Under the pieces are notes generated by a model that did no database searches, was not told where the DNA came from, and worked only from the letters and a program-made list of their open reading frames with translations. Below are positions 10,436 through 22,396 of a stretch of DNA of 64,000 nucleotides, one piece after another (the first letter of the stretch is position 1; the number at the start of each line of letters is the position of its first letter). The DNA is from Nitrospinaceae bacterium (GTDB lineage: Bacteria > Nitrospinota > Nitrospinia > Nitrospinales > Nitrospinaceae), in the NCBI GenBank assembly GCA_024644405.1, contig JAHELC010000006.1:1-64000 (forward strand), given 5' to 3'. A program made the translations under genes and the position numbers.

Positions 10436-11668
10436 ATGACGATCAGGAAACTCATCGATGAGATGGACGCGGCCATTCAGTTCCCGGGATTGACCAACGC
10501 CTGGACCATGCCGATCAAGACCCGGATCGATATGCTATCCACCGGAATCAAGACCCCTGTCGGAATTAAAATCGCCGGAGACGATTTAAACACTCTTCAG
10601 GAACTGGGCCAGCAGGTGGAAACGGCCGTTCGCGACATACCGGGTACTCTCAGCGTTTATTCCGAACGGGTGGTGGGAGGAAACTATTTTGACTTCGAGA
10701 TCGACCGGGAGGAGGCCGCCCGCTACGGATTAACCATGGGAGATGTGCAAGATGTCATTCAAACTGCAATCGGGGGGATGAACATCACCACCACCATTGA
10801 AGGACTGGAGCGGTATCCAATCAACCTCAGGTACAGCCGGGACCTGCGTGACGATATCAATAAATTGCAACGGGTTTTGATTTCCACACCGCAAGGGCAA
10901 CAAATCCCTATGATTCAGGTCGCGAAAGTTGTGATCAAAAAAGGTCCGCCGGCAATAAAAAGTGAAAACGCCCGTCTCAACGCCTGGATCTACATCGATA
11001 TAAAAGATATCGATGTCGGTACCTATGTGGAAAATGCCAAGCAGGTCATTGAAAAAGAAATTTCTTTACCCGCGGGGTACAGTTTGTTTTGGAGCGGTCA
11101 ATATGAATATCTGGAGCGGGCCCAGGCCCGGTTGAAATTGGTCGTTCCCTTTACGCTTCTTATTATTTTCTTACTCTTATATTTGAATTTTCAAAATATT
11201 ACTGAGAGTCTCATCGTTATGCTGTCCCTGCCGTTCTCACTGGTCGGGGGAATCTGGTATATTTACTATCTGGATTACGATTTGAGCGTGGCGGTGGTGG
11301 TTGGGTTTATTGCTCTGGCGGGACTTGCGGCAGAAATCGGCGTACTGGTCTTGACTTATATCGATCACGAATTTCAAAGAAAAATGAAAGCCGGAAACAT
11401 CACCGATCTCCATGACTTGAGAGAAGCGGTTTTCAAAGGAGTATCGGAACGGATTCGTCCCATTTTAATGGCAGTTACGGCAACTTTCGCCGGCCTGCTT
11501 CCGATCATGTGGGGTAGCGGTACCGGTTCAGAAGTCATGCAACGCATCGCCGCGCCGATGGTGGGAGGCATGGTGTCCGCCACTTTATTAACCCTGATCG
11601 TGATTCCCGCCATCTACGGCTGGGTACTTGAGCATCGTCTCAAACAATCCGGTCAATACACACACTAA
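10436..11668 (+). pseudogene. C-terminal fragment of CusA/CzcA-type RND efflux pump
   Basis: 410 residues that correspond to about the last 40% of a ~1040-residue heavy-metal RND transporter. The homologous part begins in the second large periplasmic loop (RKLIDEMDAAIQFPGLTNAW, then KTRIDMLSTGIKTPVGIKI), and includes ERYPINLRY, SGQYEYLERA and the last membrane helices with PFSLVGGIW and RIAAPMVGGMVSA. Everything N-terminal is absent: the first transmembrane half, including the proton-relay helix 4, and the usual CusC and CusB genes. The first codons have no good ribosome site. The frame itself has no internal stop, so the loss is either recent or the fragment is retained. It cannot pump on its own. 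Confidence 0.85.
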
Positions 11669-11675
11669 AACTACA

Positions 11676-12260
11676 ATGAAAAATCTAAATATTATTTTAC
11701 TGTTAATAGCTGTTGCTGTGACCAGCCTGATTTCGACTCCTTCTTACAGCCATGTCATCCCGGAGGATCAATTACGCAATGTTGTTTATATGACTACCCG
11801 GCAGGCACTGCAAAAGGTTTTTGCCGGTGTCAACAAAATCAAAAAAGAAAACCGGAAACTGACAGTTTCCCAACAAAGGGAGGCCGAAAAAATCCTGCAG
11901 AAAAAAATCAAGGACCTGCGTATCCAGTTTTTCACCGCTCATAAAGACGGCCGCCAACTCTATGCCACCATCGGTAAAACCTTTGCAAATTCCCATCCTG
12001 TTACGAAAGCCAGATTCGTGGTCCTTCTGGACTCTCAGGGAAACCTTGAGGAGTGTCACATCATGGAATATCAGGGTCCGCAACGTGCAGAGATCATTTC
12101 CCGTGATTTTTTGGATCAGTATCGCAACAAATCCGCCAAATCCGATTTCAGCATAGTTGCCAGCAACCAGGGGCCCACTCCTTCGGTTCAGGCCCTGAAC
12201 GAAGCGGTGCGTAAAATATTGGTTTTATACAAGGTGCTCTATCTGGATTCCAGCCACTGA
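11676..12260 (+). CDS. FMN-binding-domain-like secreted protein
   Basis: 194 residues from ATG 11676, 7 bases after the RND fragment. A signal peptide (about 1-25, ending SYS) is followed by a helical part and then an FMN_bind-like segment (ARFVVLLDSQGNLEECHIMEYQ, here around 115-136). FMN_bind proteins such as RnfG and NqrC carry FMN attached by ApbE to a threonine in a D-x-x-T-G-A-T-type motif. Here the corresponding place reads SNQGPTPSVQ: the acidic residue and GA are gone but Gly, Thr and the SVQAL continuation remain. The assignment is by pattern only. Location next to the pump remnant suggests it was part of the same operon. Confidence 0.55.
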   Translation: MKNLNIILLLIAVAVTSLISTPSYSHVIPEDQLRNVVYMTTRQALQKVFAGVNKIKKENRKLTVSQQREAEKILQKKIKDLRIQFFTAHKDGRQLYATIGKTFANSHPVTKARFVVLLDSQGNLEECHIMEYQGPQRAEIISRDFLDQYRNKSAKSDFSIVASNQGPTPSVQALNEAVRKILVLYKVLYLDSSH

Positions 12261-12287
12261 GGCGGCCGACCCTGCCCTCCTTCTTCC

Positions 12288-12316
12288 TTGACACCCTTTT
12301 GGGCCTTACGTATGCT
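12288..12316 (+). promoter_or_regulatory. Sigma-70 promoter of the MoxR module
   Basis: TTGACA at 12288-12293 and TATGCT at 12311-12316 are 17 bases apart. Transcription would begin near 12323, which excludes the ATG at 12319 as translation start and supports ATG 12343 with its AAGGAG site. Confidence 0.75.
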
Positions 12317-12342
12317 GAATGAAACCTAAGGAGAGCTTTTTA

Positions 12343-13320
12343 ATGAAAGACGATGTCAAAGGAAGCGGACTTCTCAATCAGAAAGTGACTATCGGCGGAG
12401 TGCAATTGACGCTCAGCCAGCCGGATTCCAGTGAAGTCACCTGGATCGGCCAGAGTGAAATCCTGAAGCAGATTCTGGCCTGCTGGCTGGTGGTGGGAGA
12501 AAAGGACCTGCCGTTGGCTCCGCGGATTGTCGGTATGCCCGGTATCGGCAAAACCACCCTGGCCATGGTCGGGGCGCGGACCCGCAAGCAGCCGTTATAT
12601 ATTTTTCAATGCACCGCCGATACCCGGCCGGAGGATCTGCTGGTCACTCCGGTACTTTCCGAAGCCGGCACCATTTCCTATCATGCCTCACCCCTGGTGA
12701 CGGCCATGATCCAGGGTGGCATCTGCATCCTGGATGAAGGCAACCGGATGAACGAAAAGAGCTGGGCCTCGCTGGCGCCGCTGCTGGATCACCGCCGCTA
12801 TGTCGAGTCGATTATTGCCGGCATACAGATCCACGCACATATGGAATTCCGCGCCGCCGTCACCATGAACAGCGACGAGTCCACATTCGAGATACCCGAC
12901 TACATCCTGTCGCGCCTGCAACCCACGCTGCAATTGAAAATGCCTTCGCATCAAGACGAGCTTTCCATATTGAAATACCATTTACCGTTTGCTGAAGAGG
13001 ACCTGTTGAACATGACGGTCGGGTTCCTGCAACGCGCGCACCAGCTTGATCTCGACTTTTCGCCGCGCGACGGTCTGCATATTCTGCAATACGCTCTCAA
13101 ACGAATGAGTCAGGACAAGGAACATCCTCTCTCGAAAGACGATATCTGGCTGGAAGCGGTGGAAAAAGTACTCGGCGAGGATGCGTTGAATCTGGATGAA
13201 CTGGCCGAAAAGAAAAAGCGGGCTCTGGGTTCTGAAAACCTGCCGATGGGTCTGGGGGATTTTTTCTTTGACGAAGACAGTCCCCTCCACCCCGATTCTG
13301 ATCCTGATTCCGACCGTTAA
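12343..13320 (+). CDS. MoxR-like AAA+ ATPase
   Basis: 325 residues from ATG 12343, preceded by AAGGAG at 9 bases. Walker A is GMPGIGKTT at 64-72, Walker B is ICILDE at 127-132 followed by [19 protein letters not shown] (the MoxR DExNR-type segment), and sensor 1 asparagine is N176 in [11 protein letters not shown]. An arginine in SRLQP fits the finger. The C-terminus is an acidic tail. MoxR ATPases usually work with von Willebrand factor A proteins to insert metals or remodel complexes. Here no vWA gene is adjacent. The next gene, 21 bases downstream, encodes a 608-residue protein that is the obvious partner. Confidence 0.85.
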
Positions 13321-13341
13321 GACCCTCTTTCGGAGTTATAA

Positions 13342-15168
13342 ATGGCGCACATTTTTGAACTCAGCGAGAAAGTTCAGTTGCTTCCCGTGGTTCACGGAAG
13401 CGGCAATTTCACTCGTGAGGTCCGCCAGAGAATTTTATCCTCCGGGTGCGATTGCCTGGCTGTCTGCCTGCCGCCGGAATTTCAAACCACTGTCGAAGAA
13501 GGTCTGCAAAAACTTCCCTATATCTCTATCAGTACCTTGACAGAGTCGGAGGGAACTGTGAGTTACGTTCCGATCGATCCCGTACAACCCGTCATCATGG
13601 CGCTGCGCATCGCCCAGCAGGAAGGCATTCCCCGGAAGTTCATCGACCTCAGCGTTTCCGAATATGAAACACGCCATTTCGAGTTCCCCGACTCATTTGC
13701 CCTGAACGGACTCTCTCTGGAAAAGTTCGCCATCACCCTTCTGCCATTTATCGATCGTCCTCCCGCGGACAGCCAGCACGACCAGCGGGCACGGTGGATG
13801 GCGTACCAGTTGCACCAGTTGGAAATGGATTATTCGAAGGTCGTTCTGGTCTGTTCGGTTTTGGACTGGCCGTGGATCAAGCAGGCGTATGATGAACGCT
13901 CCAAGTATCCCAAACCCAGTCCATCGCCCGAACATCCCGCATTATACGGGTTGGAACCTAACACACTATTTTTCGCGTTGAGCGAGTTCCCCTATATCAC
14001 CTACCTGTACGAAAAGAACCGGCAGGAGTTGAAATCGGACCGGGGCGTGGCGATCGACGGCGTCAAGGAGATCATGCTGAAAGCACGGGAGAATTTTCTG
14101 GCCAAACATAAAGTTCGTTATCACAACCTGACGTCACAGACCTTTCAGGTTTATCTGCAATACGTGCGCAACCTCACGCTTATGGAGCGCAGGCTCACGC
14201 CCGATCTGTATACCCTGGTGGTTTCCGCTGAGCAGATCGGGGGAGATGCGTATGCGATTGCCCTGGTCGAGGCCGCCCGCGACTATCCGTTTCAGAAAAA
14301 GGAAGAGGGAATGGACACGCTGGCGTTGGGCATCGACCGGGCGGTCCTCGATGACGATCAAGTCATCAATATGAAGAACCGGCTCAACGAAACCCAGTTT
14401 GAATGGCGGACTCTGGATCTGAAGCCGAACCCCGAGCCGTTCAAACAGGAACAGTGGAAATACACCTGGAATCCTTACGGACAATGCTCCTGGCCGCCGG
14501 AAGATGAAAAGATTGAAAGTCTGAACACCCATGTCCGCGAGCAGACCAAACTTCTGCTGTCTCACGATCTGGCGCGCACCGAAAAGTTCACTTCATCCGT
14601 CAAAGATGGGATCGACATCCGGGACACGCTCCGCAACTGGCACACCGGTGATATCTACGTCAAAGAGATCCCTCCTTCGCGGGGCACCATCGAAGTGGTG
14701 GTCATGCTGTTCGAAATGGAACCCCAGCCGGATCGATACACCTGGCGGCAAACCTGGTTCGCAGAGCATAAAGAAGAATCCACACTATGCTTCTTCGCCA
14801 CGAACTATATGGATAACATGATCGGCCCGGGCATCGGCCAGGCCACCTATGGCGGGTGCATGATGATTTTTCCTCCACGCCCGATCATCAACATATGGGA
14901 GGATCCCCGCCTGTTCATGGGCGATACGCTGGAGGAAAAACTATTGGAGGCAGCGTTTTTGCATTCCCGCGAACGGCATATCACCGTCGTCTCTCCCGGA
15001 CCGCCCAAAGCCGGTTGGCGCCGCATGGCCCGTCAATACAAAAAACGGATCATTCATATTCCCCTCAAACGGTTTTCCGTCCAGACCATTGAAAAAGTCC
15101 GCCAGTTTCACGTGCTGAACGGCAAGCACATCCGCTCCTTCGCCACCCGATTCATTCAGGACATTTAA
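13342..15168 (+). CDS. DUF5682/TraB-like partner of MoxR ATPase
   Basis: 608 residues, no signal or membrane helix seen, so cytosolic. The first ~200 residues follow the order of motifs I associate with DUF5682 and the wider TraB/TIKI/EreA-like class: VVHGSGNFTREVRQRIL (17-33), CDCLAVCLPPE, then PVQPVIMALRIAQQEGIP leading into RKFIDL, and RWMAYQLHQLEMDYSKVVLVC. DUF5682 proteins are known from MoxR-vWA operons, which agrees with the upstream ATPase. The C-terminal ~400 residues are not recognised. The fit is from remembered patterns, so it needs a profile search. GGAG precedes the ATG. Confidence 0.6.
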   Translation: MAHIFELSEKVQLLPVVHGSGNFTREVRQRILSSGCDCLAVCLPPEFQTTVEEGLQKLPYISISTLTESEGTVSYVPIDPVQPVIMALRIAQQEGIPRKFIDLSVSEYETRHFEFPDSFALNGLSLEKFAITLLPFIDRPPADSQHDQRARWMAYQLHQLEMDYSKVVLVCSVLDWPWIKQAYDERSKYPKPSPSPEHPALYGLEPNTLFFALSEFPYITYLYEKNRQELKSDRGVAIDGVKEIMLKARENFLAKHKVRYHNLTSQTFQVYLQYVRNLTLMERRLTPDLYTLVVSAEQIGGDAYAIALVEAARDYPFQKKEEGMDTLALGIDRAVLDDDQVINMKNRLNETQFEWRTLDLKPNPEPFKQEQWKYTWNPYGQCSWPPEDEKIESLNTHVREQTKLLLSHDLARTEKFTSSVKDGIDIRDTLRNWHTGDIYVKEIPPSRGTIEVVVMLFEMEPQPDRYTWRQTWFAEHKEESTLCFFATNYMDNMIGPGIGQATYGGCMMIFPPRPIINIWEDPRLFMGDTLEEKLLEAAFLHSRERHITVVSPGPPKAGWRRMARQYKKRIIHIPLKRFSVQTIEKVRQFHVLNGKHIRSFATRFIQDI

Positions 15169-20134: not shown

Positions 20135-20163
20135 TTGACAAGATTCCTTCATTAATATATATT
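20135..20163 (+). promoter_or_regulatory. Sigma-70 promoter of the FTR1 operon
   Basis: TTGACA at 20135-20140 and TATATT at 20158-20163 with a 17-base spacer. The -10 box abuts the Fur-box-like palindrome, as in many iron-repressed promoters. Confidence 0.8.
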
Positions 20164-20182
20164 GATAATCATTCTCATTATT
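20164..20182 (+). promoter_or_regulatory. Putative Fur box
   Basis: GATAATCATTCTCATTATT matches the 19-base consensus GATAATGATAATCATTATC at about 15 positions. It starts at the base after the -10 box, covering the expected transcription start, where bound Fur would block RNA polymerase. A Fur-family gene is at 45504-45932. Confidence 0.7.
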
Positions 20183-20248
20183 AAAATTATTGGGATTAAT
20201 CAAGACCTGAGAATTCCATTAACTGTTTTTAAAAAGCCGAAAGAAACC

Positions 20249-22396
20249 ATGTTTCCCAAAAACAGATTGAAGTTTACGACGGGCTTATTTGCCTTCCTGC
20301 TGGGAATCATTGTGATGTCCCTCCATATCCCAACTCCGGTAGAGTCTCAACCGGGAAAGCTGGAATCCGGCGTCAAGAAAATCGTTATGATGATGAACAT
20401 CGTCAACAAGGAATACCACGAAGGAATTGCGAAAGGGAAAATCATCAATGCTGCGGAATACGAAGAGAGCCAGGTATTTCTGGAGCAGGCGTTTGGCCGT
20501 TATCAGAATCTGACGGAGGGAAAGGCGTCTGAGGGAATCCCGGACGAACTGGCCAGCCGGTTTGTTTCGCTTATTCAGAAAATTAAAAGCAAAGAAGATC
20601 CCAGTGTGATTCACTCCGAAGTCAACGCGATCAATGCCGGAATCCTTAAGAAATTCAACATCCAGCTCAGCCAAACACCCTCCGATCCGGTTTCTCTTGA
20701 AAATGGACGTACCCTCTACGCGAATAATTGTAAGGTCTGTCATGGAATCCAGGGACAAGGGGATGGTCCGATCGCGCCGCAACTGGATCCCAAACCTGCG
20801 GTATTATCCGATCCACAACTCACGGGAGACAAATTTTCCAAACCTTACGATAATTTCCAGATCATCAACGTGGGCATTGCCAATACTGCGATGGTGGGCT
20901 GGGCCGACCAATTTTCCGAAAAGGAATTGTGGGATGTGACATATTTCATTCGGACGTTTTCCAACGAAAATGTGAAGCTTCCGCTTTTGGTTTCCCAGAC
21001 GTCATCCACGGGTATTGAGAAAAACCGCGGAAGTTCGACAAAAAAAATCTTCAGCGAAGTATTTTTATTACTCGATCAAAGTTTGAAGGCTTACCGGGAA
21101 GGCCAGAACCGGGAAGCTTCAGAGTCTGCTTTCGACGCTTACCTGACTTATGAAAAGGTGGAATCGCCTTTAATCACCAAGCGCAAGGAACTCGGCCTCA
21201 AGCTGGAATCTTCTTTTGGCAGACTGCAGGCGGAAATCAAACGGAATGCAGACATCGACCTGGTGGAGAAAGTCGGACAGGGAATCGCCGACGACTTGAA
21301 AGAGGCTCAGCAGGTGTTGACGCAGGAGATTGGGTTCACCGGTTTGTTTATCCAATCCTTCTCGATCATTGTGCGGGAAGGTTTTGAAGCGATTTTGATT
21401 ATCGCGGCGTTGATCACGTTCCTCGTTAAATCCCGCAATCGGGACAAACTGAAAGCCATTTACGTGGGCGTGGCGATCGGGGTCATCGGCAGTTTTATCA
21501 CCGCGTATATCCTTCAGGAAATTCTGGATATCAGTATGTCCAGCCAGGAAATGATGGAAGGAATCATCATGCTGGTCGCGGTCTTGGTTCTGTTTTATGT
21601 CAGCTACTGGCTGGTTTCTAAAATCGAAGCGACCAAATGGCAAAGTTATATCACCGGTAAAATGCAGAAAGCGGTCACCACCGGTAGCGCATTTACCCTC
21701 AGTATGGTTGCCTTTCTGTCGGTATACCGGGAAGGCTTTGAGACCGTTCTGTTTTACAAAGCGCTGTACCTGTACGCCGGGGACACCACCGCCGGGATCA
21801 TACCCGGATTCCTCGCCGGATGTGTCGTTCTGGCAGTTGTCTATTTCCTGATCAACCAATTGGGGATGCGTATCCCGGTAAAATGGTTTTTCGTGGTCAC
21901 CAGTGTATTCCTGTATTACATGGCATTCATGTTCATGGGCAAAGGGCTCCACGAATTGCAAATGGGGGGAGCCTTGAGCATGACTGTCGCCAACTTTGTT
22001 CCCGAAATTCCGTGGCTGGGCATGTACCCGACGTGGGAAACCTTCATCGGCCAAATGATACTCGTGGTGGCCTATGCCGGCGCCTTGATTTATACCTTCG
22101 GGATCAAACAGGAGCGCGCAGCACACGAATTAAAATCAGAGGCCACCCAGATCCAGCAGAATATCACCGTGGTTCACGATCTGGTCGAACACATTTCGCA
22201 TCACGCCAAGCGTTGCGAAATCTTCCTTAAGGATACCCGCGACCAGGACCTTAAGGAATTGTCCCAGCATTTGAAGGAAATCGATTCCAAAGTCCATGAG
22301 TTGTTCGATCAGGTGATCTATTTTGAAAATCGCCTGACGGATGAGTACGATCGCTTGTCGCAACCCATCGGCGCCAAGGAAAAGGATTTGCATTGA
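20249..22396 (+). CDS. Cytochrome c domain - FTR1 iron permease fusion
   Basis: 715 residues from ATG 20249; earlier frame codons lie upstream or across the Fur box. A signal anchor is followed by a helical periplasmic part, a haem c domain (CKVCH at 161-165), another helical stretch, and then an FTR1-type permease with the two REGFE motifs at 376-380 and 494-498 and SSQEMMEG between them. Those acidic motifs bind iron during transport in the FTR1/EfeU family. The haem may oxidise or reduce iron at the entry. The C-terminus is a ~70-residue charged tail with H-D-x2-E-H-I-x2-H-x3-C at about 643-656. A Fur box sits at its promoter and the next gene overlaps its stop. Confidence 0.9.

Follow-up and report, generated by a model that had tools for sequence, protein, structure and literature searches.

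Two genes, here called A and B, lie on the same strand of the window, by which we mean the whole stretch of 64,000 nucleotides of Nitrospinaceae DNA that was analysed. According to the ORF listing they are separated by 21 bp, and both open reading frames were confirmed in place. The genes and the features recognised in them are listed below.

12288..12316, + strand: sigma-70-type promoter, TTGACA-17-TATGCT, kept in four sister species
12328..12345, + strand: ribosome binding site AAGGAG (12328-12333) and probable ATG start (12343-12345) for gene A, from sister-species conservation
12343..13320, + strand: gene A, MoxR-type AAA+ ATPase by its AAA_5 match, 325 aa (the ORF opens at 12319, giving 333 aa)
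12532..12555, + strand: Walker A motif GMPGIGKT, A residues 72-79 (numbered from the ATG at 12319), from the sequence
12721..12738, + strand: Walker B motif ICILDE, A residues 135-140, from the sequence
13249..13299, + strand: 17-residue C-terminal tail motif of A, exclusive to partners of H-x-D type B
13342..15168, + strand: gene B, 608 aa, from the ORF listing
13342..13956, + strand: TIKI/TraB-fold domain, DUF5682-like, B residues 1-205, from profiles and predicted fold (H18 retained; C in place of E42 and D in place of H175)
13957..14316, + strand: helical region, B residues 206-325, weakly alignable with DUF5682 up to residue 299
14467..15165, + strand: undescribed conserved C-terminal domain, B residues 376-608, with CSWPPED ... 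KDGID.RxTLR ... EH.EST ... FHVLNG

The promoter ahead of gene A had been called strong in the first-pass annotation. It scores 10/12 and is conserved in four sister species, where the sequence upstream of it diverges in the alignment, but by count such sites are no more frequent than expected by chance (2 found vs. 1.9 expected). The first ATG of the reading frame, at 12319, lies only 2 nt past the -10 box. Since the promoter and the ATG at 12343 are both kept in the sister species, gene A probably starts at 12343 and not at 12319. Just upstream of the pair, the ORF at 10436-11668 is limited to the C-terminal portion of an AcrB-type RND pump (profile positions 637-1018 of 1021) and looks like a truncated remnant. 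Another ORF of the window, at 20162-22396, combines an FTR1 iron permease domain and a cytochrome c domain in one protein.

Gene A matches the Pfam family AAA_5 with 64.6 bits (cut-off 22), and the aligned A homologues have invariant residues in both Walker motifs (G72, P74, G75, G77, K78, and T79 in Walker A; L138, D139, and E140 in Walker B). Its sequence thus marks it as a MoxR-type AAA+ ATPase, as had been proposed. CbbQ and NorQ are the closest bacterial relatives of A with a solved structure.

The N-terminus of B had been assigned to DUF5682 (TraB/EreA-like) from the order of the motifs HGSGN, CDCLAVCLPP, and FIDL, all of which are present in B in that order. Against the DUF5682 profile (PF18934) B scored 11.5 bits (E 0.093) with a Pfam gathering score of 26 bits, and no Nitrospinota are listed among the 8 of 387 genomes with a DUF5682 match. 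Homology could nevertheless be detected between families. A family alignment of 80 B sequences from several phyla (A5) was compared by hhalign with an alignment of nine true DUF5682 proteins including YehM (A4), which gave a probability of 98.1% (E 6.8e-14) over B residues 12-299, as against 0.4% for an unrelated control. YehM was also retrieved directly by the B profile (E 1e-7), and a bona fide TraB protein (PF01963) matched the B family with 95.4%. The alignment ends at B residue 299, corresponding to residue 330 of 757 in DUF5682, and no homology was seen to the C-terminal half of DUF5682. Judged by these comparisons, the N-terminus of B is remotely but clearly homologous to DUF5682. As B falls short of the Pfam cut-off and the C-terminal parts are unalignable, it is best described as a remote sister family of DUF5682 and not as a member, so that only the homology part of the original assignment stands.

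No family scored above the cut-off for B in Pfam, NCBIfam, PHROGs, or PADLOC, and sequence profiles gave no match to the PDB. The N-terminal half brought up no known unrelated family, only the DUF5682 and TraB matches. We attribute weak profile matches of B, such as those to Rpn9_C, RNase T2, and shikimate dehydrogenase, to chance. A structural match of residues 266-314 to the helices of histone folds was set aside, this arrangement being common.

The predicted structure of B points in the same direction as the profiles. The AlphaFold model based on A5 (pLDDT 90.4, pTM 0.77) was used in place of an earlier one, built on 36 close homologues, which was poor in the C-terminus. The model contains the parallel β-sheet core of the TIKI/TraB superfamily. 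The best structural neighbours of residues 1-188 were a subunit of Tetrahymena complex IV (Z 11.0), which we take to be a TraB-domain protein, followed by ChaN (8.3), HopBA1 (6.9), and Ere-type structures (6.3-6.8); as Z scores below 8 are weak taken singly, the structural claim rests on their agreement with the sequence profiles. The TIKI-superfamily structures named in PMC6254334 include ChaN, HopBA1, and the Ere-type protein Bcr135. The top Foldseek match of the model in BFVD was a viral TraB protein (prob 1.00).

Of the 80 B homologues, 34 have the complete set of putative catalytic residues of the TIKI fold, H18, E42, and H175. The set is incomplete in the B of the window, where only H18 is kept. 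E42 and H175 are replaced throughout the clade of the window, which forms a single branch with an H-E-H sister, a pattern consistent with one loss. In addition, three finished genomes of 1.6-1.8 Mb (L168, L169, L170) encode a B protein that lacks all three residues and still keeps the C-terminal domain and an adjoining A. The strict form of the tail motif of A follows the same division: of the A proteins paired with an H-x-D type B, 26 of 28 have it, whereas all 27 paired with an H-E-H type B lack it. Since the types are clades, this agreement amounts to one or few events, not many.

The C-terminal part of B, which had been called unrecognised, remained so: for this domain of ~230 residues, Pfam, NCBIfam, PADLOC, and the PDB sequences yielded nothing convincing. 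It is conserved more strongly than any other part of the protein (mean column entropy of 1.6-1.8 bits for residues 376-608 vs. 2.1-2.7 bits elsewhere), even where the TIKI residues are lost, and the 80-sequence alignment shows no variation at E387, D388, F416, and G423. In 387 genomes, all matches to the domain better than E 0.01 are B-family proteins or fragments; five extra matches with E 0.01-0.09 look like chance. When the B model was searched with Foldseek against the PDB and BFVD, many RNase H-like folds were retrieved over ~140 columns (short prokaryotic Argonautes, uS11, RuvC, and integrases), none of them significant (best E ~0.1). As a weak lead, the modelled order of strands and helices in residues 468-587 (14743-15102) would suit an RNase H-like fold.

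The fold of B and the 34 homologues with a complete residue set would fit a protein that is mainly a hydrolase (protease or esterase) of the TIKI superfamily, with the MoxR ring feeding or switching it; the version in the window would then be a derived regulatory pseudoenzyme or one that uses other residues. Such a role is harder to reconcile with the replacement of E42 and H175 in the clade of the window, with the three finished genomes described above, and with a C-terminal domain that is better conserved than the TIKI part, and we consider it unlikely. As the C-terminal domain remains fixed even in proteins that have lost the TIKI residues, the function of B probably resides there. B shares with the TIKI/TraB/Ere/ChaN superfamily the fold of residues 1-188, the TraB profile match, and H18, but differs from it in the replaced residues of this clade and in the extra conserved C-terminal domain.

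The first-pass annotation had further pointed out that in other genomes vWA proteins accompany DUF5682 and MoxR and that no vWA gene is present here, and we could confirm both observations. Among eleven true DUF5682 loci examined, a YehL-like MoxR gene was found at nine and, within the short flanks available, a YehP-like vWA gene at six. No vWA gene was found in the ten flanking genes scanned around the A-B pair, and no CoxE-type vWA scored over the cut-off in the genome of the window. VWA_2 genes are present elsewhere in this genome, the nearest ~129 kb away on the same contig. Likewise, no Yeh homologue, including a YehP-like vWA, was detected with tblastn in 19 wide A-B or B loci. In E. coli, yehL-yehM-yehP-yehQ encode a MoxR protein, a DUF5682 protein, a CoxE-type vWA protein, and a SWIM protein, respectively. 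The A-B pair resembles this module in that a MoxR gene directly precedes one whose product shares the N-terminal domain, but it has no vWA or SWIM gene, and the C-terminus of B is not alignable with that of YehM. One genome (G211) carries both a DUF5682/Yeh-type locus and a B locus, at separate places. Among the papers searched, none names DUF5682, and at least two of yehL, yehM, and yehP are mentioned together in passing in two of them.

Within the Nitrospinota, B was identified in 56 of 77 genomes and A in 54. Both genes are present in 53 genomes and neither in 20, with B only in three, at a contig end in each case, and A only in one; the association is strong (Fisher p 2e-14), although this value is indicative only, as related genomes are not independent. 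A and B are adjacent in that order in 46 of the 53 genomes with both. The seven non-adjacent cases include the fragmentary genomes G020 and G053. A and B are on different contigs in G003, G074, G075, and G076, and in some Nitrospinota families they are unlinked. Considering good genomes, 26 of 31 carry the pair at fixed synteny, and in Nitrospinaceae it is syntenic with murJ.

Outside the Nitrospinota, a first survey found B in 13 further genomes. In sampled genomes of four other phyla it was present in 23/149, 26/118, 5/8, and 3/7; the pair spans at least five bacterial phyla in all. Of the 60 distinct loci whose upstream stretch was long enough to judge, 46 have A immediately ahead of B. Together with the Nitrospinota loci, A and B homologues adjoin almost everywhere, in line with the proposed two-gene module. 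The other 14 loci have B without an adjoining A, and there B may act alone. One pair is located on plasmid pS13 of Neochlamydia sp. S13 (Chlamydiota), where the genes are annotated as 'AAA family ATPase' and 'hypothetical protein.' Two IMG/VR contigs matched, A adjoining B in one of them.

The trees of A and B are similar. Their distances are correlated with r = 0.883 over 61 pairs, a value reached in 0 of 2000 permutations, and 33 of 58 bipartitions are common to both trees. Such a correlation is expected under vertical inheritance and is no proof that the proteins touch. A and B form a conserved operon and are co-inherited. The description of the system as 'reduced' has to be abandoned, as the two-gene form is old, widespread, and co-evolving and not a stripped-down local copy.

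A role in conflict had also been suggested. The pair might be a conflict or anti-phage system with B as sensor or effector and A as its NTP-driven regulator, given that MoxR-vWA ternary systems have been described as conflict systems (PMC7159879), that the distribution outside the Nitrospinota is patchy, and that one copy is plasmid-borne. The pair has a MoxR ATPase in common with these MoxR-vWA-β-propeller/VMAP systems, but no bpMoxR match, vWA neighbour, or variable effector was seen for it. Moreover, PADLOC gave no match for A, B, or 39 B homologues, no phage record matched, and both the fixed synteny in Nitrospinota and the agreement of the two trees weigh against such a role, which we find very unlikely. 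Vertical inheritance and the fixed neighbourhood beside murJ in Nitrospinaceae favour housekeeping over conflict.

MoxR ATPases are understood mostly via their vWA partners. Like NorQ-NorD, CbbQ-CbbO, and RavA-ViaA, the A-B operon combines a MoxR ATPase with one dedicated partner; unlike the partners in those pairs, B contains a TIKI-fold domain, and no vWA domain was recognised in it. We tentatively propose, rating the chance as slightly below even, that A and B constitute a self-contained, vWA-free MoxR chaperone pair in which B is both adaptor and effector, and which serves housekeeping and not defence. A would build an ATP-driven MoxR ring, with B standing in for the vWA adaptor. The TIKI-fold domain, decayed as an enzyme in the clade of the window, would be a docking or structural module, and the strongly conserved C-terminal domain would bind or act on the client. 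ATP hydrolysis by A would then remodel B or a B-bound client, as a step in housekeeping maturation or quality control rather than defence. MoxR-adaptor pairs such as NorQ-NorD are known to remodel clients using ATP (PMC9976466); for A and B, we infer a physical complex, the adaptor role of B, and client remodelling.

The kinship of A to CbbQ and NorQ could also mean that the pair serves a single metalloenzyme by inserting its metal or maturing it, in the manner of NorQ-NorD and CbbQ-CbbO; in the case of NorQ-NorD, iron is inserted into the reductase (PMC9976466). We see this as distinctly unlikely, as the neighbourhood survey found no enzyme conserved beside the pair as a candidate client, the carriers are varied, and the pair is without the vWA domain that is required in NorD (PMC9976466). 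A third gene common to the A-B loci that would name the client was not found either.

In a broader version of the chaperone-pair proposal, A-B would represent a class of MoxR machines that operate without vWA, widespread but so far undescribed. The C-terminal domain of the partner, a new fold or enzyme, would be the business end, and the TIKI-fold domain, originally an enzyme, would have become a docking module in the course of the family's history. We regard this as possible, though somewhat doubtful. The pair is a natural case in which to ask whether MoxR depends on its vWA adaptor or can work with a substitute, and B exposes a conserved domain that is absent from the libraries searched. The comparison also connects the TIKI fold with the uncharacterised proteins of the DUF5682/YehM type, and in the B family a loss of active-site residues can be located on the tree and set against the corresponding change in the ATPase.

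A few irregular loci were seen among the genomes surveyed. In G057, assembled as one 2.5 Mb contig, shortened copies of A and B lie 1.5 Mb apart (L061 6716-8473; L062 7016-7906), A being cut after residue ~197 and B before residue ~191, which points to a rearrangement or an assembly error. Fragments matching no more than the last 45-65 residues of B (L105 11127-11264; G024 C438 4051-4242) are remnants of a duplicated B. Finally, at L096 (9089-12625) a lone B is found near a different MoxR gene (11627-12625), which matches A weakly (E 2e-7).
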